Origin: Paenibacillus piri | GTDB taxonomy: Bacteria; Bacillota; Bacilli; Paenibacillales; NBRC-103111 | Assembly (NCBI RefSeq): GCF_004354045.1 | Contig: NZ_SMRT01000002.1 | Coordinates: 558,001-622,000, forward strand | Length of the DNA stretch: 64,000 nt | Direction: 5' to 3' | Part shown: piece by piece, positions 52,929 to 61,841 of the stretch | How positions within the stretch are numbered: position 1 is the stretch's first letter | Layout of the letters: every line of letters starts with the position of its first letter | The notes under the pieces: model-generated | Seen by the model: the letters and a program-made list of their open reading frames with translations, nothing else | What the model was told of the DNA's origin: nothing | Database searches by the model: none | Program-made: the position numbers and the translations under genes

Positions 52929-55844
52929 ATGTCTAAAAAAGTGATGCCATGGCTGCTTACGCTGAGCATCGCCTGCACCGGCTTCAGTTGGTCCGCCAAT
53001 CCGGATACGGAGCAAAAGCTGAACCGGATCGGGACATGGGACGGTACGACGGAAAAGGCCGAGCTCGCAGGTCCGTACGTGGATGCGGTGCAGGGCGAGG
53101 TGCCTTATGGATTCCGCAATTTTTTCAGAAATCCATGGCGCAGCTATATGGACACCTGGAGCGCGCAAAAGTACTTGGATGGATTGGGCATCAATTTTAA
53201 CGTCAATGCGCCGGAAGCGGAGGCCACCGCGCAAATCCTGGAGGAAGCGGGGATTCGTTCCGGCCGTATTGAAATAGGCTGGGACAGCATTGACTATTAC
53301 GACGACACCGCAATGAAGGCGGCGAATTACGATCGGCTGAAAGCTTTGCTGCAGGCCATGCAGAAGCATCGGATTCGGCCGCTGATTTTGCTGAATTTCA
53401 ACTCCGGAGCTCCAAACCCGCGCGCCGGCGTTCAGGTGGAAGTGCTAAAACCGGCCAAAGCGGGCGACCGGACCGTCTATTTCAAGGAACTGAAGGAAAC
53501 GATCCGCCCCAAATATACCGGGTTTACCAACTACGGCTTCATGATGTATCCGATTATTACGGAATTCGATCCGCAGACCGGCAAAGCGACGCTTTCCGCT
53601 CCCCTCCCCCAAGATTTGCCCGCAGGCAAGACCGAAATTTCCAAGCTCAAGTATCAGCCGTTTTCGCCGCCTGTCTTTAAGGACGGAACGCCGAATCCCG
53701 CATCGCAGGAAACGCTCGACGGATGGATGAAATATGTAACGACCGTTACAAATGCCGCCAAGGCAAGCCTGGGAACGGACGGAACCGAGGACGCAGGCTT
53801 CGATATCGAAGTGTGGAACGAATTTTCATTCGGGTATCATTTTATGAATATTAACGAATATTACGAGCCTGATCTGGAGTTTGCGAAGGATCCTATAAGC
53901 TACACGAAGGACGGCAGAACGCAAACCGGCGGCGAGGTGCTGCTGCCGATGACGATCGATTACGTGCAAAACCCGGATAACGGGCTGCCGGGCGTTCGTG
54001 TGATCAACGGCTTCTCCAACCAGCGTCCCTGGGATGACGGGTCGATGATGTGGCAGGGGCAAACCGGCTACAGCCGGCACTATTACAATGGCTATGATCA
54101 GGTCAAATCGCTCATTGCTCCGGGCTCGAAATCGGCCTATCAAAGTCCGACGCAACGTTATCAGGACGCGCAGGGCAATCGTGACGGCGTGCAGGACCCG
54201 AACAATGAGGATCGTACGTTGGAGGGCAGCTTTTTTACGCCGGCGCATATTGCCGCCTATCCCGAGCTGTGGTGGGCCGTTTATCAGACGGAAAGCGTAA
54301 GCCGGGATACCGTGCCGTTTCCGAGCCCGTATACCGGCCATTTTCGGAATGCGAGTCCGGGTCGCGGCGTAACGCCGCAACTGTGGATGACGGAGACCGG
54401 CTTCTTCAAGGAGGATTTCGCCAAACAGCTCATGGAGCAGACGGGCGCGGGTCGCGACGATGTCCGACTTCGCACGCTGATGCATGATTTGGCAGCGAAA
54501 AGCGTGCTGCGTCAATATGTGTTCAGCAGCCATAAAGGGCTGAGCACGATGAATTTATATGCAGCCAAAAGCAGCGATACCGGCTTTGCTTTCATTCCCG
54601 AATCGTTTTATGCGAAGCTGAAAGAGGACAATTATGTGCTGACGGATGCCGTCCGCGCCGAAGCCGGTTCACAGGTTGCGGCGCTTGCCGCCCTGACCCG
54701 GCTGATGAAAACCGGGGAACCGGTATCGACTCCAAGGCCGCTTAAGGTAGATAAGCTGGTCGAATACAAGCCGCGGCTTGTGTTCGAAGGGGACGGAACG
54801 GCTGCGCATCCGACCGTTTACCACCGCGATGAATTTGCCGTATTGCCCTACCAGCTGAACGACCACAAGTTTGCCGTCGGCTACTATGTGGTCACGCGGA
54901 ATTCGCTGCATGACTGGGATAAAGATCGGGACCCGCTCGATACCGGTCGCTACAACATGCCGGAGCAGCAGTTCGAGCTCACGTTGTCCAACGTCCTGGG
55001 CGCGAACGCGAAGCTGTCCGTCTACGACCCGATTCAAGATACGACCGTTCCGTTGGAGGCGGCAAGCGCGGACGGCTCGACTTTAACGGTCAATGTCCAG
55101 AGCGTCGATTATCCGAGGATTCTGCTGATCGAAGAAGCGGAGGACGGTCCGGTGATGCAGCAGCCGCTGCTGGAAAAGACGGCAACCGGCGGTGCCGTTT
55201 CCTTCACGCCAAGCGCAAGCGGCACCGTACGCGCCACCTTCGGGAAATACCCGGCGCGCTCCGGCGGGATGTTCAAGTTCGAACGCTACACGGATAAAAC
55301 GTTCTCCGCTCTGGTGGAAGCTTCCGAGTCCAACCAGCTGTATCAAGCTTTTTCAAGCCCGGGAGCGTGGAAATGGACAGGGACCGTTCAACCGAAGTAT
55401 TCCGAGCCGTATACATTATTTATTACTGCCGGGAATGTTCATAATGCGAAGCTGCGGCTGAACGGCGAGCTTGTGTTCGACGGCAAAGACAACAGAGGCA
55501 TCGTCAAGCTCGATTTGACAGCGGGCAAGTCGTATAACCTGGAATTTACGTATTTCAACGAATGGTCCAACAACCATAGCGCCGAAGTATATTGGTCGAG
55601 CGCCAGTCAGCAAAAAGACATTATCGCGGCGGAGGTACCGGAATCGAAGGCGATCTCAATGCCGGTCGTTAAAGGGGAAAAGGCCTCGATTCCGCTGGAA
55701 GGCATGAAGGAGGGCGACGGGGTCAGGCTGGAATTCAGCGAAGGCAATAGCATTTGGACCCGTTTCCCGTTCTGGAGCTTTGACCGGGCCGGGGTCATGT
55801 ACGCTGAAACCCCGATGGCCGGCGAGCCGCAGCAGGCGCCGTAA
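52929..55844 (+). CDS. Secreted clan GH-A-like glycoside hydrolase with PA14 domain
   Basis: Large exported protein of 971 aa. An N-terminal signal peptide (MPWLLTLSIACTGFSWSA) precedes a TIM-barrel part resembling GH39/GH-A enzymes: acid/base candidate Glu298 in IEVWNEFSF and nucleophile candidate Glu489 in LWMTETGF, with inserted loops between. The beta region follows, then a PA14 carbohydrate-binding domain at about 777-905 (LYQAFSSPGAWKWTG, NVHNAKLRLNGELVFDG, and TYFNEWSNNHSAEVYW). GGAGGGAG precedes ATG 52929. No cell-wall anchor is seen, so it is probably released. Substrate undetermined. Confidence 0.85.
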   Translation: MSKKVMPWLLTLSIACTGFSWSANPDTEQKLNRIGTWDGTTEKAELAGPYVDAVQGEVPYGFRNFFRNPWRSYMDTWSAQKYLDGLGINFNVNAPEAEATAQILEEAGIRSGRIEIGWDSIDYYDDTAMKAANYDRLKALLQAMQKHRIRPLILLNFNSGAPNPRAGVQVEVLKPAKAGDRTVYFKELKETIRPKYTGFTNYGFMMYPIITEFDPQTGKATLSAPLPQDLPAGKTEISKLKYQPFSPPVFKDGTPNPASQETLDGWMKYVTTVTNAAKASLGTDGTEDAGFDIEVWNEFSFGYHFMNINEYYEPDLEFAKDPISYTKDGRTQTGGEVLLPMTIDYVQNPDNGLPGVRVINGFSNQRPWDDGSMMWQGQTGYSRHYYNGYDQVKSLIAPGSKSAYQSPTQRYQDAQGNRDGVQDPNNEDRTLEGSFFTPAHIAAYPELWWAVYQTESVSRDTVPFPSPYTGHFRNASPGRGVTPQLWMTETGFFKEDFAKQLMEQTGAGRDDVRLRTLMHDLAAKSVLRQYVFSSHKGLSTMNLYAAKSSDTGFAFIPESFYAKLKEDNYVLTDAVRAEAGSQVAALAALTRLMKTGEPVSTPRPLKVDKLVEYKPRLVFEGDGTAAHPTVYHRDEFAVLPYQLNDHKFAVGYYVVTRNSLHDWDKDRDPLDTGRYNMPEQQFELTLSNVLGANAKLSVYDPIQDTTVPLEAASADGSTLTVNVQSVDYPRILLIEEAEDGPVMQQPLLEKTATGGAVSFTPSASGTVRATFGKYPARSGGMFKFERYTDKTFSALVEASESNQLYQAFSSPGAWKWTGTVQPKYSEPYTLFITAGNVHNAKLRLNGELVFDGKDNRGIVKLDLTAGKSYNLEFTYFNEWSNNHSAEVYWSSASQQKDIIAAEVPESKAISMPVVKGEKASIPLEGMKEGDGVRLEFSEGNSIWTRFPFWSFDRAGVMYAETPMAGEPQQAP

Positions 55845-55859
55845 TGTCGCGATAAAAGC

Positions 55860-55900
55860 AAAAAACCGGCTCCTCTTGTTGCAGAGGCAGCCGGTTTTTT
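55860..55900. terminator. Bidirectional terminator between secreted hydrolase and MFS gene
   Basis: AAAAACCGGCT (55861-55871) and AGCCGGTTTTTT (55889-55900), with inner CCTCT/AGAGG, form a long hairpin with A and T runs on either side, so it can serve both convergent genes. Confidence 0.92.
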
Positions 55901-55932
55901 GCACGCTTTTAAACCAATCGGACGAGGTTGAA

Positions 55933-57150
55933 TCAAGCCGGCGCTTTTTGCTTGCCGGGCCGGATGGCCAGCAGAGCAAGCAGGGCGGCCAGCGCACTGG
56001 CGGCGCTAATGGGATAGAACAGCCAGCGGCTCGACATATTCATCAGCAGCGATGCGGCAGGCGGGCCGACGGCTACCCCGATGAATCTCATGCTGCTGTA
56101 TATCGAGGTAATGGTGCCGCGCTGCTCCTTTTCGATTCCCTCCGTAATCAGCGCGTCAAGGCTGGGCAGCGAGGCCCCGATGCCGATGCCGGCCAAGCCG
56201 AGCAGGAGCAGCAAATAAATGAGCGATTCCGGCTCGGTCCATCCGCATATGAGCAGCGCGACGCTCATAACAACAAGTCCGCCCAACGTGACCCATTTCA
56301 TCAACGGCTTGTTTTCGCCGATGATTTTGCCGGTCACGTAGGAGGAAAGACATAGCGCCGCGAGCGGGAACGCCAGCAGGCAGCCTTTATAAACGCCTTT
56401 AATACCGTAACGGTCCTCCAATAAATTGGACAAATAAAACAATGCGGCAAAGACGACGAACATGCATATTCCGCCTGCGGCAAACACAGCGCCCAGCCAG
56501 CTGCCCTTTTCCCGGAACAGCTCGCGGATCGACCGCCGGAAACTGGCAAAGCTGACGACCGGCTCCGGCTTGTCCTTTCGCGGCGCTTTCACCAGGATGC
56601 CTACGAGCAGAACGGACAGCAGACAAAGTGCGGGAATCGCGTAAAACGGGGTGTACCAGCTGATTAACGCCAATAATGAGCCGACAATCGGGCTTAACAC
56701 TTTGCCGAAAGTATTGGCTGTTTCGATCACGCCGAGCCCGGCGCTCACCTCTTTTTCCTGCTGAAACAAATCTCCGACCAACGGGAGAACGATAGGTGCT
56801 GCACCCGCAGCCCCGACACCCTGCAGCAGCCTGCCCCACAGCATGATGTGATAGCCGTTACCAGGCAGTATCGAAGCCAAACCGCATACGGCGCCGCCCG
56901 CACCCGCCAGCAGAAGACCGGGGATCAATATTTTTTTGCGGCCGAACCGGTCCGACAAATAGCCGGCTACCGGGATCAAGACGATCGCGACCAAAGAGTA
57001 TAAGGTAATGATCAGACTGATTTGAAACGGACTGACCTGCAGCTCTTCGGCTAACGCGGGAAGTATGGGGATCAGCATCGAATTTCCCAGCGTCATAATA
57101 AGCGGAACCGAGGACAATGAGAGAAGTGCGCCTGCTTTTCCTGCTTCCAT
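55933..57150 (-). CDS. MFS transporter (DHA1-type exporter)
   Basis: Membrane carrier of 405 aa with twelve predicted helices. The MFS motif A between helices 2 and 3 is GYLSDRFGRKKIL (~65-77), and motif C-like PxxGG is in LLLAGAGGAVCGL; the second-half motif is VTGKIIGENKPLMKW. Drug:H+ antiporter-1 family, usually multidrug or sugar efflux. ATG 57150 (MEAGKAGALLSLSSVPL) is favoured by AGAGGTGG upstream; the frame extends to 57210. Single-gene unit convergent with the secreted hydrolase. Confidence 0.92.
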   Translation of the reverse strand: MEAGKAGALLSLSSVPLIMTLGNSMLIPILPALAEELQVSPFQISLIITLYSLVAIVLIPVAGYLSDRFGRKKILIPGLLLAGAGGAVCGLASILPGNGYHIMLWGRLLQGVGAAGAAPIVLPLVGDLFQQEKEVSAGLGVIETANTFGKVLSPIVGSLLALISWYTPFYAIPALCLLSVLLVGILVKAPRKDKPEPVVSFASFRRSIRELFREKGSWLGAVFAAGGICMFVVFAALFYLSNLLEDRYGIKGVYKGCLLAFPLAALCLSSYVTGKIIGENKPLMKWVTLGGLVVMSVALLICGWTEPESLIYLLLLLGLAGIGIGASLPSLDALITEGIEKEQRGTITSIYSSMRFIGVAVGPPAASLLMNMSSRWLFYPISAASALAALLALLAIRPGKQKAPA

Positions 57151-57318
57151 GGAAGCTAACCACCTCTGCTGACGATTATGGAAAGCCAATGCTTCCGGCG
57201 GTCCGGTCAACCATTGCCGATGATGGTAAGGTTAGCTAAACCCGATAAAAATATTCAACTATTCCGCTTGGATTTTTGATGCCTGCCTGCCTGTCTGTCT
57301 GTCGAAAGTCCAAGCGGG

Positions 57319-58071
57319 TCAAACGCCGCCCCGATCCGTCAATTGCACAGGCGCGCCGTCATAAATAGCGGTTCCTTCGGGAAGTCCCCCGCATATCGCT
57401 TTCATCGCTCCGGGCTTATCGAAGTTGAATACAAACACCGGCAGCTTGAAATCCCGGGCCAAAATAAAAGCCGATTGATCCATGACCTTTAAATTTTTGC
57501 CGAGCACTTCGTTGTAAGGCAGCGACACGTAGGTTCTCGCATTCGCGTCCTGCTTCGGATCGCTATTCATGACGCCGTCAACGCCCTGTTTGGCAACAAG
57601 AATCGCATCGCAGTTCACCTCCAGCGCTCTTTGAACGGAAGGGTAATCCGTCGTAACATAAGGCTGGCCGTTGCCGCCGGCAAAGATGACGATATACCCT
57701 TTCTCCAAATGATGGATCGCCCGCAGACGAATGTACGGCTCCGCAACCGCGCTGACCGGGATGGAGGACATGACCCGCACTTCCTTGCCTGTCCTTTGTT
57801 TGAGCACGCCTCTGAGCATCAAACTGTTGATGACGGTGGCCAAGGTGCCGATATTGTCGGCCTCGGCCCGTTCGATCCCCCAATAATCCGCCATATTGCC
57901 GCGAAAAATATTGCCCCCGCCAATAACGATCGATACCTCGATGCCAAGCTCCACCACCGACAACACCTCCCTGGCGATATGCTCCAGTCTTGTCGGGTCG
58001 AAGCCGAATTCGCTGCTGCCGGCAACTGCACCGCCGCTTAATTTGATCATAATCCGTTTGTATGCTCTCAT
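57319..58071 (-). CDS. UMP kinase paralogue (PyrH-like amino acid kinase)
   Basis: Amino-acid-kinase-fold protein of 250 aa. Motifs: IMIKLSGGAVAG, VIGGGNIFRG (57-66 approx.), TDYPSVQRALE, VDGVMNSDPK and VMDQSAFILA, all in the PyrH order. The typical context (tsf-pyrH-frr) is absent, so this is probably a second copy beside the housekeeping gene. It phosphorylates UMP to UDP if active. Its leader carries a candidate attenuator (58189-58226) and a 23-codon reading frame. GGAGG (CCGGAGGCG) precedes ATG 58071. Confidence 0.85.
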   Translation of the reverse strand: MRAYKRIMIKLSGGAVAGSSEFGFDPTRLEHIAREVLSVVELGIEVSIVIGGGNIFRGNMADYWGIERAEADNIGTLATVINSLMLRGVLKQRTGKEVRVMSSIPVSAVAEPYIRLRAIHHLEKGYIVIFAGGNGQPYVTTDYPSVQRALEVNCDAILVAKQGVDGVMNSDPKQDANARTYVSLPYNEVLGKNLKVMDQSAFILARDFKLPVFVFNFDKPGAMKAICGGLPEGTAIYDGAPVQLTDRGGV

Positions 58072-58190
58072 AACTGGATCGCCTCCGGCTATAATTGTAA
58101 AGGATAAAAGCTTTGCCGTCCTTAGGGGATAGGCATGCTTGTCAACATTGTGCGAAGCAAGTATAAATAGCTGCGCTTGCTTTAGAACTT

Positions 58191-58226
58191 AAAAAAAGAA
58201 CTAAAGCAGCGGATGCTTTAGTTCTT
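58191..58226 (-). terminator. Attenuator hairpin in the UMP-kinase leader
   Basis: On the minus strand, AAGAACTAAAGCA (58226-58214) pairs perfectly with TGCTTTAGTTCTT (58208-58196) and leads directly into seven Ts (58197-58191). The hairpin is ~120 bases before the UMP-kinase start, and no gene ends upstream of it on that strand, so it appears to terminate the leader. Its 5' arm contains the stop codon (TAA, 58220-58218) of the leader reading frame. Confidence 0.8.
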
Positions 58227-58289
58227 CATAAAAAACGAAAAGAGGAGAGCGGCATATGCGTTCCGGACGGGTTTAAACATCGGCTTCAT
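58218..58289 (-). CDS. 23-codon leader peptide overlapping the attenuator
   Basis: Minus strand: AAAGGAG (58304-58298) eight bases before ATG 58289, then 23 codons (MKPMFKPVRN ... FFMKN) and TAA 58218. The last third is strongly U-rich (CTC CTC TTT TCG TTT TTT) before the hairpin, and the stop sits inside the 5' stem. A ribosome at the stop would block hairpin formation. The peptide is unlike any known protein; function would be regulatory. Uncertain because of its length, but the ribosome site and geometry are strong. Confidence 0.65.
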   Translation of the reverse strand: MKPMFKPVRNAYAALLFSFFMKN

Positions 58290-58325
58290 AGCGCTCGCTC
58301 CTTTCACAGGTTCCAGTTGATTCCC

Positions 58326-58354
58326 TTATACAATACCTGAAACCGGAGAGGATG
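58326..58354 (-). promoter_or_regulatory. Promoter of the UMP-kinase leader
   Basis: Minus strand: TTGCCA, 17-bp spacer, TATTGT, ending about 20 bases before the leader ribosome site. Four to five of six bases match sigma-A consensus in each box. It would start the transcript that runs through the leader peptide and hairpin. Confidence 0.55.
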
Positions 58355-58485
58355 GCAATACTTTCCACTGTATGGCGAATGCGGGAACCGAAAGCGCCGC
58401 AATTCGACATTTCAGCTGTCCGTCCAATCCGGAGGATGCTATAATTTCTTTAAAACCGCTTATAGGACACGGGGGGCTGGCTGGA

Positions 58486-60282
58486 TTGAAGCTGCAACGT
58501 TTGAAAATCCACTCCATCAGCAATAAAATGATCGTCTATTTCTCTACGCTGTTTATCATCGTTATTGTCATAATCGGAGCGATTTCATACCGGATGTCTT
58601 CCCACGCGCTCGAAGAGCAGATGATTCTGGACACGCAAAAAATTATGGATCAGGCGATGATTAACGCCGACTTTTACTTTTCCGATATGAAGACGCCCAT
58701 GATAATGATCGCACGCAATCCGAACGTATTGAACATATTGACGAATTATGCGGATGCCGAATGGGTGGACCGGTTGAGCATGCAGCGCATACTGGACGAG
58801 TTTACGCAAAATATTAACCAGTTTAAATCGTATATTAAAGACATTATTCTCGTAAGCCGAAACGGCGTTGTTTACAATATTACGCTGGCCGATGAAATTT
58901 CCCGCGGCTTTCCGTTTCTCGAGTCCGAATGGATGAAGCCGGTTGTCGGCAGCGACAAGCGAGGCATTCAGTTCGTTACGACGCATGTGAGCAACTATTA
59001 TGTCGGCGCCTATTCGAAAGACAAGGTCGTATCTGCGGTTTTGCCGATCGAGGAAAACAGGAACGTGCTCGGTTATGTCGTATGCGATATCAATCTGCAA
59101 AAATTCAGCGAAATTTTTCAATCGCTTTCACTCGGCTCCGGCGGCTATATTTATATGGTCGACCCGCAGGGCAAAATTATTGTCCATCCGGACCCCAGGA
59201 AAATCGGCACGGAAATCGGCGGCGAACTGCTTGAGCCGCTGCTTCATGATCGGACCGGATCTTTTAAAATGACGGACGGCGGCGAGAAAAAGCTGATCAT
59301 CCGCACGCAATCGAAAGTGACCGGCTGGTTGCTGGTCGGTGACATTCCGTACGCTCATATTACGAAAGCGGCGAGTCAAAACCGGACGATTACGTATCTC
59401 ATCCTCGCAATGGGCGTACTGCTCATTGTTGCGATCTCCGTTATCGTATCCAGGCAAATTACGAAGCCGATCAAAGCATTGATTGACCGGATGAAAAAAG
59501 TGCAGACGCATGATTTCAAAACCCGCGAAGTCGATTACGGGCATGGCGAGGTAGCGGTCATCGGCCAACGGTTCGAGGGCATGGTATTTGAAATTAATAA
59601 ATTAATACAGGATGTGTACGTTTCCAATCTGAAGCAGAAGGAAGCGGAGCTGAAGGAGCTGCAAAATCAGATCAATCCGCATTTTTTGTACAATACGCTC
59701 CAGCTCGTGAAGGCGGAAGCTGTATTTGGCCGCCACAAGGAAGTCAGCCTGCTTATCACGACGCTGGGCGAGCTGCTGCGATATCCGATGTATGGCCGCA
59801 ACGAGCCGGTTGAGCTTCAGGAGGAAATATCGTATATCAACAAATATATCGATATTTATCAACGGCGGTTTCGCGGGAAATTCGAGTTTACTTGCGACAT
59901 GGACCCGAAAGTTTCGCGGATGCGCGTGCCGAAGCTCATTTTGCAGCCGGTTGTCGAGAACGGTCTTGTTCACGGCTTGCGCGAAACCAAATCCGGCGGC
60001 CGCATCGATGTCCGGATCAGCTGCAGTGAAGACGGCTCCTCCGTCGAAATTATCGTATGGGATAACGGAACCGGCATGACGAAGGAGCAAGTAACGCAAT
60101 TAAACGAACGATTGAGCGCCGAGCAGGACGATCACAGTATCGGCTTACTGAACGTCAGGCAGCGGATTCAATTGAAATACGGACCCGAGTACGGCATCTC
60201 GGTTCGCAGCGAAGAAGGAGTCTTTACAGAGGTCAAGCTGACGCTGCCGCGGGAAAATGGCGATCCGGCCGCAAATCATTAA
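58486..60282 (+). CDS. YesM-type sensor histidine kinase
   Basis: Membrane kinase of ~598 aa. TM1 at MIVYFSTLFIIVIVIIGAI, a dCache sensor including FYFSDMKTPMIMIARN and GGYIYMVDPQGKIIVHPD, TM2 at ILAMGVLLIVAISVIV, HAMP, the His_kinase site LQNQINPHFLYNTLQ, and HATPase LILQPVVENGLVHG with DNGTGMT. Start is uncertain: TTG 58486 has GGGGGG ~9 bases upstream; the frame is open to 58372. It is divergent from the UMP-kinase leader. It is followed after 14 nt by its regulator gene. Confidence 0.91.
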   Translation: MKLQRLKIHSISNKMIVYFSTLFIIVIVIIGAISYRMSSHALEEQMILDTQKIMDQAMINADFYFSDMKTPMIMIARNPNVLNILTNYADAEWVDRLSMQRILDEFTQNINQFKSYIKDIILVSRNGVVYNITLADEISRGFPFLESEWMKPVVGSDKRGIQFVTTHVSNYYVGAYSKDKVVSAVLPIEENRNVLGYVVCDINLQKFSEIFQSLSLGSGGYIYMVDPQGKIIVHPDPRKIGTEIGGELLEPLLHDRTGSFKMTDGGEKKLIIRTQSKVTGWLLVGDIPYAHITKAASQNRTITYLILAMGVLLIVAISVIVSRQITKPIKALIDRMKKVQTHDFKTREVDYGHGEVAVIGQRFEGMVFEINKLIQDVYVSNLKQKEAELKELQNQINPHFLYNTLQLVKAEAVFGRHKEVSLLITTLGELLRYPMYGRNEPVELQEEISYINKYIDIYQRRFRGKFEFTCDMDPKVSRMRVPKLILQPVVENGLVHGLRETKSGGRIDVRISCSEDGSSVEIIVWDNGTGMTKEQVTQLNERLSAEQDDHSIGLLNVRQRIQLKYGPEYGISVRSEEGVFTEVKLTLPRENGDPAANH

Positions 60283-60296
60283 ACGGGAGACAACCG

Positions 60297-61841
60297 ATGC
60301 TGAATATTATATTGATCGATGACGAAGCAACAAATATTGAACTGCTCAAGCGGGTGTTGGATTGGGAAGCTTTAGGCTACACGATTTCAGGCACCGCTTA
60401 CGATGGCGCGGAAGGACTGGCGTTATACCGCCGGATCGGCCCCGATGTCATTCTGGTCGATATTCGGATGCCGGAGATGGACGGTATTGCGTTCATCAAG
60501 GAAGTACGGAAATCGAATACGCGCGTCAAAATGATTATTCTCAGCGCATACGCGGAATTCGAATATGCGCAACAGGCTATCGAATATGGGATTCACGCTT
60601 ATTTGCTCAAGCCCATCGACGAAATGAAGTTAGAGGAGCTGTTGTTGGCGATCAAGGAGGAGCAGCAGTCGGAAATGGCGAAAAGCCGCTCCATGATCGA
60701 ACTCCGGTACCAGAAGCTATTGCATTGGGCCGAGACGTCGACGGACGCCGTCCCGCTCCCGCTGGCCGCCGATGAGTTGGCGGACATCAAGCCATTTTGT
60801 CTCGTTTGCCTTGCCTATGAAGCTGAACGGAACGACCCGACGGGCGATAGCGAGGCTGCGGCTTTTTTGCAGGCTGCAATAAGGCAGCAACCGGGCTGCG
60901 TCGCAATCCGGAGCGATAAAAGCGGCGGTTCGTTGACGATCGTGTATGAGGCGGAGGAAACCGCGATCCAAACCGTGGTCGCGACGATGATGGAGCTGGA
61001 CGAGCAGTGCCGGCGCCGTTACGGGCAGCGGCTTACATGCGGCATCAGCCAATCTGTTATCGCGCTGTCGGACTTCTGTCTCGCTTATGTGCAGGCTGTT
61101 CGAGCGCTGCATGCCGGTTTTTACCGGACGTCGTCGGCTTCTGTTGCCTTATATGAAGGCGAGCCGCCGTTTCCCGACTGGAATGCGGGCGATTTCGCCA
61201 AGAAAAAACGGGAAATCAGCGAAGATATTCAATCAGGCCGGATAGGCTCTTTGCAGCGTTATTTGGAGCAAACGATGGACAGCTTTAGAGAAAATCGCGT
61301 AAATCCGGAGGATATGTACCGGTTTTGTGTCGAGCTCATCGATTTATTGCATGAAGTGTTTACAGCGATCGACCCGCAGTTCGGATCAATGTTCGAACCG
61401 CTTCTATCGGGAGGCGTCCGGAAATACCGACGCTGGGAGTCGTTAAAGCGGGCCATGGAGGAGATTATCGTCAAGAGTGGATCGGCTTTGCGCTCGCTGG
61501 TCGACAGCAATAAAAATTACGCGGTGATCCGCAAAGCGAAGGAATTCGCCCTGCTTCATTTTCACGAGGAGCAGCTTCATCTGCAGGATGTGGCGGACCA
61601 TGTTGGACTCAGCAAAAATCATTTTTCCAAAATGTATAAAGAACAGACCGGCGAAAACTTCTGGGACTACGTGATTGAACTGAAGCTCGAGCTGGCCAAG
61701 CAAATGCTGCGGGAGACGAACAAAACGAATTTTGAAATCGCCAGTCTGATCGGATACAGCAGCGAGTATCATTTCAGCCGCACCTTCGGCAAGCAGGTAG
61801 GCTTGACAACCACCCAATACCGCAAGCTTCACCGCAATTGA
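60297..61841 (+). CDS. YesN-type response regulator, receiver plus AraC HTH
   Basis: Regulator of 514 aa. Receiver with DDE 8-10, phospho-acceptor Asp55 (VDIRMP) and YLLKPID; a middle domain without clear motif; C-terminal AraC HTH (VADHVGLSKNHFSKMYKEQTG and IASLIGYSSEYHFSRTFGKQVG). Paired with the preceding kinase. CGGGAG precedes ATG 60297. No transporter gene is beside the pair, and the likely target is the downstream glycosidase-like gene or an operon elsewhere. Confidence 0.93.
   Translation: MLNIILIDDEATNIELLKRVLDWEALGYTISGTAYDGAEGLALYRRIGPDVILVDIRMPEMDGIAFIKEVRKSNTRVKMIILSAYAEFEYAQQAIEYGIHAYLLKPIDEMKLEELLLAIKEEQQSEMAKSRSMIELRYQKLLHWAETSTDAVPLPLAADELADIKPFCLVCLAYEAERNDPTGDSEAAAFLQAAIRQQPGCVAIRSDKSGGSLTIVYEAEETAIQTVVATMMELDEQCRRRYGQRLTCGISQSVIALSDFCLAYVQAVRALHAGFYRTSSASVALYEGEPPFPDWNAGDFAKKKREISEDIQSGRIGSLQRYLEQTMDSFRENRVNPEDMYRFCVELIDLLHEVFTAIDPQFGSMFEPLLSGGVRKYRRWESLKRAMEEIIVKSGSALRSLVDSNKNYAVIRKAKEFALLHFHEEQLHLQDVADHVGLSKNHFSKMYKEQTGENFWDYVIELKLELAKQMLRETNKTNFEIASLIGYSSEYHFSRTFGKQVGLTTTQYRKLHRN

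Follow-up and report, generated by a model that had tools for sequence, protein, structure and literature searches.

A conserved leader frame and putative attenuator before a second UMP-kinase gene in Paenibacillus piri and its relatives

In Paenibacillus piri and its relatives, a second UMP-kinase gene is preceded by a leader in which, as shown by comparison, a short frame is kept open, the frame mostly ends inside the hairpin of an intrinsic terminator, and both this terminator and a second helix (hereafter named P1) are conserved. The leader was analysed in a 64,000-nucleotide stretch of the P. piri genome (hereafter the window). An earlier sequence-only reading of the window had proposed a leader peptide plus attenuator; judged by its relatives, the leader with its attenuator is conserved and more elaborate than first reported. 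There is about an even chance that it is an attenuator worked by translation, in which ribosome loading races the closure of P1 and a low level of UTP or CTP is the most plausible signal. Attenuation based on coupling is textbook knowledge for Escherichia coli and is doubted for Bacilli, and a conserved leader before a pyrimidine-kinase gene offers a clean test of ribosome-based nucleotide sensing in such bacteria. It also gives a first clue to when the widespread second UMP kinase is made.

The leader in the window and among relatives

The anatomy on the minus strand (Table 1) is as first described, with AAAGGAG, a 23-codon frame, a 13-bp hairpin with the stop codon in its 5' arm, seven T and a gap of about 120 nt to the kinase gene. 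The hairpin has 13 perfect pairs, or 14 counting the G-T end pair. The promoter-like boxes reported with it were found again, and box pairs were read by eye in comparable positions in several relatives; alone, these boxes are weak evidence, since a promoter search of 57900-58500 returned one site where chance alone would give 0.5. Just past the T run, TTCTAAAGCAAGC is repeated (58175-58187, minus strand) and could pair with the 3' arm of the terminator, a pairing of downstream part and 3' arm that is not conserved in the relatives (mean z 0.05).

Table 1. Features of the leader and of the gene behind it in the window
Feature	Position in window	Strand	Details
Promoter-like boxes TTGCCA - 17 nt - TATTGT	58330..58358	-	9/12 consensus matches
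Shine-Dalgarno (SD) AAAGGAG	58304-58298	-	inside P1 5' strand
P1 5' strand	58287..58305	-	contains full SD and leader ATG (58289-58287); from fold, consensus fold and pair counts
Leader ORF MKPMFKPVRNAYAALLFSFFMKN	58218..58289	-	ATG at 58289; 23 codons + TAA (58220-58218)
P1 3' strand	58237..58258	-	pyrimidine-rich tract inside the ORF; partner of SD + ATG; 18 pairs in the window (58305-58287 with 58258-58237)
U-rich stretch GTTTTTTAT	58228..58236	-	rest of the tract, between P1 and terminator; from the letters
Intrinsic terminator hairpin AAGAACTAAAGCA/TGCTTTAGTTCTT	58195..58227	-	ORF stop (58220-58218) in 5' arm
Seven-T run	58191..58197	-	first 2 T (3 with the G-T pair) also in the stem
Second UMP-kinase gene P0001, 250 aa	57319..58071	-	behind the attenuator; ATG at 58071; TIGR02075 match

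The best 80 of 215 relatives from a protein search were kept, mostly Paenibacillus together with Cohnella, Saccharibacillus, Brevibacillus and a few others, which makes 81 loci with the window. The hairpin ACTAAAGC...GCTTTAGT or a near variant, followed by a T run, stands in most relatives usually 20-60 nt before the kinase gene, and in most of them the start codon of the leader is preceded by an SD. A covariance model trained on the 46 rows of alignment A1 matches upstream of the kinase gene in 75 of the 80 relatives (E <= 0.001), or in 30 of 35 as an independent count, since 45 of the 80 trained the model. Among these 75 matches, 69 exceed 43.4 bits, the best chance match read, and six do not (L024, L028, L060, L066, L068 and L080), while five relatives (L073, L074, L077, L079 and L081) have no match upstream of the kinase gene at this threshold. 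Run against the whole P. piri genome, the model, whose 46 rows include the window, gave E = 4.6e-12 at the window leader; besides this it returned, up to E = 1, only the same place on the reverse strand (0.0105) and one match at 0.765, so the window leader exceeds chance in its own genome. A second hairpin of the same motif in this genome (L084) was rejected, sitting between two convergent genes.

A script returned no leader in 7 of the 81 loci (L003, L068, L073, L075, L077, L079 and L081); in L003 it was found further upstream, ending in the 3' arm, and L068 and L075 have weak covariance-model matches. Two near-identical repeats of about 115 bases were noticed by eye between leader and kinase gene in L003 (2732-2965). 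The only candidate for tandem leaders, a weak upstream match in L078 (31.2 bits), was discarded as a lone terminator by eye.

Within the window's family, 62 of 104 genomes have a leader match at E <= 0.001 and at least 69 hold the second kinase at >=62% identity. A leader match is present in 59 of these 69, in 58 of them just upstream of the kinase by coordinates and in one (G069) with leader and kinase at two contig ends; the other ten gave no leader match (G008-G012, G025, G036, G044, G077 and G091). The kinase gene adjoins the leader in all 30 of the best family matches (L088-L117), and three more (L134-L136) involve contig edges or a broken kinase gene. In one of the 30 (L088; G023:C1:1855422-1856123), a kinase gene at 62% identity carries three internal stop codons behind a leader of 107 bits, so that, behind this intact leader, either the gene is broken or the assembly is wrong. 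Candidates for other genes under the same leader came from ten matches, weaker or second ones (L118-L127, E 4.8e-7 to 1.4e-4), and were rejected, the kinase being present in none of them; reading frames were listed for all ten, and in the seven viewed as alignments (all except L123, L125 and L126) the score comes mostly from the terminator, with P1 partly broken or absent. In the genomes searched, comparison thus shows that the leader goes with this one kinase gene. No Rfam family matched positions 55000-61000 of the window up to E = 1, and among the titles listed by a literature search of open-licence papers, none deals with this leader.

The open frame and the helix over its start

Leader starts were picked by SD and hairpin only and never by openness. 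The resulting frame is open in 73 of 74 loci, the exception (L064) lying outside the set of 56 non-redundant rows, which comprises loci less than 88% alike and from which L024, L028, L060, L064 and L074 had been omitted beforehand. Not one stop occurs among the 1078 leader-frame codons of these 56 loci, where the two alternative frames contain 34 (1042 codons) and 22 (1036 codons), and 56 of 56 frames are open against a mean of 35.8 and a maximum of 44 when the middle of the ORF is shuffled. These counts indicate that the leader ORF is under selection to stay open.

In 69 of 74 loci, the end of the ORF lies within the hairpin (5' arm 34, 3' arm 33, loop 2), in four beyond it and in one before it. 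Two frames meet a stop codon in the usual hairpin, and loci of both kinds occur, so that the C-terminal peptide is not conserved, which speaks against a stalling peptide. By this comparison, the conserved feature appears to be the arrival of a ribosome at the hairpin rather than the peptide made there. Aligning the leaders of relatives, the check suggested with the original proposal, thus found frame and hairpin conserved and the SD present, with a peptide end that is not conserved, and the idea of a leader peptide plus attenuator gains strong support from the open frames, the ends inside the hairpin and the 75 model matches.

The distance between hairpin and kinase gene has a median of 31 nt; it is at most 45 nt in 59 of 74 loci and longer in 15, and such a short gap leaves little room for a separate promoter; the window, with its roughly 120 nt, is not among these 59. 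It is highly improbable that the frame is a free-standing small-protein gene with its own terminator and that the kinase is transcribed from its own promoter. Stop codons near terminators are usual where the polymerase outruns ribosomes. Terminators close behind stop codons are described for Bacillus subtilis in an excerpt of PMC7858274, and the 15 longer gaps, the window's among them, would suit such a gene; the short median gap, the two reading frames at the C-terminus and the fact that leader and kinase stay together while other neighbours change speak against it.

P1, which is new here, is a second helix in which, by the pairing evidence, the SD and start codon of the ORF pair with the pyrimidine tract before the terminator. 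SD and start commonly read GGAGTGGGAATATG, complementary (with G-U pairs) to the tract, commonly CATATTTCCATTCC, and the window forms its P1 from letters of its own. The consensus fold (RNAalifold) contains P1, unprompted, and the terminator, and no helix besides these two. In alignment A1, which omits ten of the 56 rows, mostly unusually spaced ones (L005, L012, L034, L039, L042, L050, L063, L066, L076 and L080), so that the P1 counts lean towards well-aligned rows, pairing holds in 87.6% of the P1 cells and drops to 47-64% when the strands are slid. A change on both sides is seen in 26 cells against 12.9 in shuffles, and 0 of 500 shuffles reach 26, whereas the six P1 pairs with a change on both sides are not above shuffles (196 of 500 reach this number); a slide of +2 gives more cells changed on both sides (39), yet only 63.6% of its cells are paired. 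At 42 of the 74 loci, the P1 duplex has a lower energy than its shuffles (p <= 0.05), against p > 0.05 at the other 32, and z is below -1.64 in 33 of 56. The terminator helix is 98.9% paired over the 46 rows, and 8 of its 12 pairs are changed on both sides in some row; the 15 pairs of highest mutual information include three terminator pairs and no P1 pair.

Since SD and start pair with the tract, the start would be exposed until the tract is transcribed. The predicted accessibility of SD and ATG averages 0.59 as long as the transcript lacks the tract and 0.20 once it includes it, or 0.33 with a shuffled tract; the value after the tract is lower than that of the locus's own shuffle in 52 of 56 loci, and in the window it is predicted to fall from 0.51 to 0.07. 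The tract itself contains 43% T and 25% C (52% T in its last 20 nt), a composition largely explained by P1 pairing. The U-rich coding tail noticed in the sequence-only reading is real, and much of it is a strand of P1, which that reading missed. Because pairing with a purine-rich SD largely forces a pyrimidine-rich tract, this composition is weak evidence for UTP sensing; the fact that many P1 pairs have U and not C opposite G is suggestive in this respect.

With SD and start hidden by P1, any change in initiation or in P1 stability would act on the leader, and nothing in the sequence singles out UTP. The same gate could respond to initiation capacity, temperature or growth rate through free 30S subunits, (p)ppGpp or the melting of P1. 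A sensor of such general signals should also stand before other genes, yet in the genomes searched the 30 best family matches all adjoin the kinase gene, and a signal of this kind is considered unlikely. It is slightly less probable still that a protein or metabolite, for example the kinase itself in an autogenous manner, binds P1 and sets the translation of the leader. The P1 letters are strongly conserved inside the main leader group and the leader travels with the kinase gene without other conserved neighbours, as a binding site might; in the window and in the family f23, however, the letters differ widely, as expected for pairing and not for a binding site, and neither a Rfam match up to E = 1 nor a further conserved helix in the consensus fold points to a binder.

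Beyond the family, a search of 299 genomes of the class gave a kinase match at E <= 1e-70 in 31. Run at E <= 1e-5, the leader model matches next to the kinase in the genome of the window, in five genomes of family f2 and in two of f23. Leaving the window's own row aside, there are 31 class-level rows, of which 30 upstream regions were read by eye; the one outside this reading (G337) has its leader match by the model. A leader was seen by eye in nine regions (four f2, five f23), and 21 of the 30 had no such leader (three of f23, the rest from families f37, f17, f4 and f45). The minimum-energy folds of L146-L150, the five f23 leaders, join the SD region to the tract before the terminator using other letters, in L147 as a long helix of different letters, and the predicted SD/ATG accessibility falls from 0.47-0.75 to 0.08-0.25. 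Their frames are open up to the hairpin in 5/5; only in L149 does the frame end inside it, while those of L147 and L148 end just past the T run and those of L146 and L150 run on.

The second kinase and its neighbours

The window protein scores 289.6 bits against TIGR02075, the bacterial UMP kinase family (cut-off 243.9). A housekeeping pyrH lies elsewhere in the same genome, flanked by genes that we take to be tsf and frr from their sequences, and its product is 48% identical to the second copy. At the positions aligned with Thr138 and Asn140 of the E. coli enzyme, all 81 second copies carry Asn and Gln (window residues 134 and 136). In the alignment, these Thr->Asn and Asn->Gln changes are seen against both the own housekeeping copy and E. 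coli, and they fall in the motif GGNGQPYVTTDYP (S in 79 and A in 2 of the 81). Thr138 and Asn140 contact uracil, as stated in an excerpt of PMC12847342. With residues that contact uracil altered in 81/81, the second kinase may act on a substrate other than UMP, and the simplest feedback story would then lose force. Among solved structures, the nearest by sequence is PDB 2JJX (366.7 bits, residues 1-242), listed as Bacillus anthracis UMP kinase BA1797 in the references of PMC4161293, which shares the GGNGQP and TTDYPS stretches with the second kinase and has F for Y in the motif GGNGQPYVTTDYP; this likeness covers the protein only.

No conserved operon partner was found within 3 kb of the kinase gene, the commonest neighbour group occurring in 12 of 81 loci; leader and kinase gene appear to travel as a unit. 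In the window, a gene for an MFS exporter follows the kinase gene on the same strand (55933-57150, minus); its product is nearest to the bacillibactin exporter BcbE (572.6 bits, cut-off 600), and the exporter is not a conserved neighbour of the kinase in the relatives (81 loci). A related UMP kinase from Nonomuraea gerenzanensis (L177, 12001-12714) is 56% identical and carries the motif GGIGQPYVTTDYPA, and its record contains a further match. By eye, the 300 bases upstream of this kinase gene show no such leader, and an antibiotic gene cluster around it was considered and dropped, none being recognised from the reading frames of this record region, which carries no annotation.

Candidate mechanism and known systems

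The choice offered at the outset lay between pyrBI-like attenuation and drug-induced stalling as in resistance leaders. Five pairing combinations that could form an antiterminator were tried, in which the coding part, 5' end, tract and downstream part were set against the terminator arms, and none is conserved (mean z -0.35 to +0.48, with at most 6 of 54 loci below -1.64). A drug-sensing leader, in which an antibiotic-stalled ribosome lets an antiterminator form, has precedents in Bacillus: according to an excerpt of PMC4191407, bmrB is the translated leader ORF of bmrCD in B. subtilis and needs a drug-slowed ribosome and a competing antiterminator, and, going by the search entry for PMC9226507, vmlR of B. 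subtilis is likewise under leader control. The window leader resembles both as a putative control element with an intrinsic terminator from a relative of Bacillus, and the exporter gene after the kinase in the window would fit. It differs from bmrB in that the five combinations revealed no conserved antiterminator, its C-terminal peptide is read in two frames and the exporter is not conserved beside the kinase; a drug sensor is thus improbable here. The pyrBI-like option is favoured by the two-frame C-terminus and by the failure to find a conserved antiterminator among these combinations, although the first comparison with pyrBI overlooked the P1 helix.

P1 and the terminator occupy separate stretches and can both be present at once, so that the default state without a ribosome would be off: P1 would form, then the terminator, and transcription would stop. 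With no conserved antiterminator found among the five combinations, the simplest route to read-through would be a ribosome that is loaded before P1 closes and covers the hairpin. If a ribosome started the ORF before the tract was transcribed, P1 could not lock the start, and the translating ribosome would run into the hairpin and keep the terminator open, leading to transcription of the UMP-kinase gene. The tract is the last-made part of P1 and about 70% U + C, so that it would be made more slowly when UTP (or CTP) runs short, a delay that would give a ribosome time to load. Low pyrimidine triphosphates would then turn the kinase on, which is the sense expected for a UMP kinase. Three steps of this reading are inferences: translation keeps the transcript from being terminated, P1 acts as a timed lock, and UTP or CTP serves as the signal.

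Polymerase outruns ribosomes in B. subtilis and other Bacilli, as stated in excerpts of PMC7858274 and PMC13323073, and the B. subtilis report would weaken any coupling mechanism. A runaway polymerase of this kind would leave room for an initiation race helped by slow synthesis of the tract, but not for a trailing ribosome. A ribosome-loading lock timed by pyrimidines, with the tract as its closing strand, whose closure a shortage of UTP or CTP delays until one ribosome enters and prevents termination, is a tentative proposal, more likely wrong than right. Since it needs a race at initiation and not a trailing ribosome, the lock would work where polymerase outruns ribosomes and, if true, would represent NTP-sensing attenuation under exactly this condition. 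It would also guard an altered second UMP kinase as a backup for times when the housekeeping kinase fails or is inhibited.

Other known systems resemble parts of this arrangement. PyrR attenuators (RF00515) control pyrimidine genes in Bacilli with an intrinsic terminator. The RF00515 covariance model gave no match at the window leader (window 55000-61000, E up to 1), and the sole PyrR-binding site found in the P. piri genome lies elsewhere (L176; G000:C57:157336-157490; 54.7 bits against a gathering score of 54), which argues that the leader is a different system. In B. subtilis, thrZ is an inducible second copy of an essential enzyme behind an attenuator that senses shortage. The second UMP kinase is similar in having a housekeeping copy elsewhere and lying behind a putative shortage-sensing attenuator; to our knowledge, the known cases of inducible second copies use T-boxes and tRNA, whereas here a leader ORF and an SD lock would take their place.

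The closest parallel is E. coli pyrBI, where a leader ORF runs into an intrinsic terminator behind a U-rich tract and before a pyrimidine gene, and where the sequence of the peptide is apparently unimportant. As in pyrBI, the ORF of the window leader reaches the terminator hairpin, the gene belongs to the pyrimidine pathway and the peptide sequence is apparently unimportant; a U-rich tract also precedes this hairpin, though P1 pairing largely explains it here. Unlike pyrBI, a conserved P1 hides the ribosome site of the leader, the hosts are Bacilli and not Enterobacteria, the gene encodes a second UMP kinase and the response to UTP is a presumed one. Membership in a pyrBI-type family is not claimed, P1 being an added feature; by analogy, the leader likely works like that of pyrBI with a lock added at its start.
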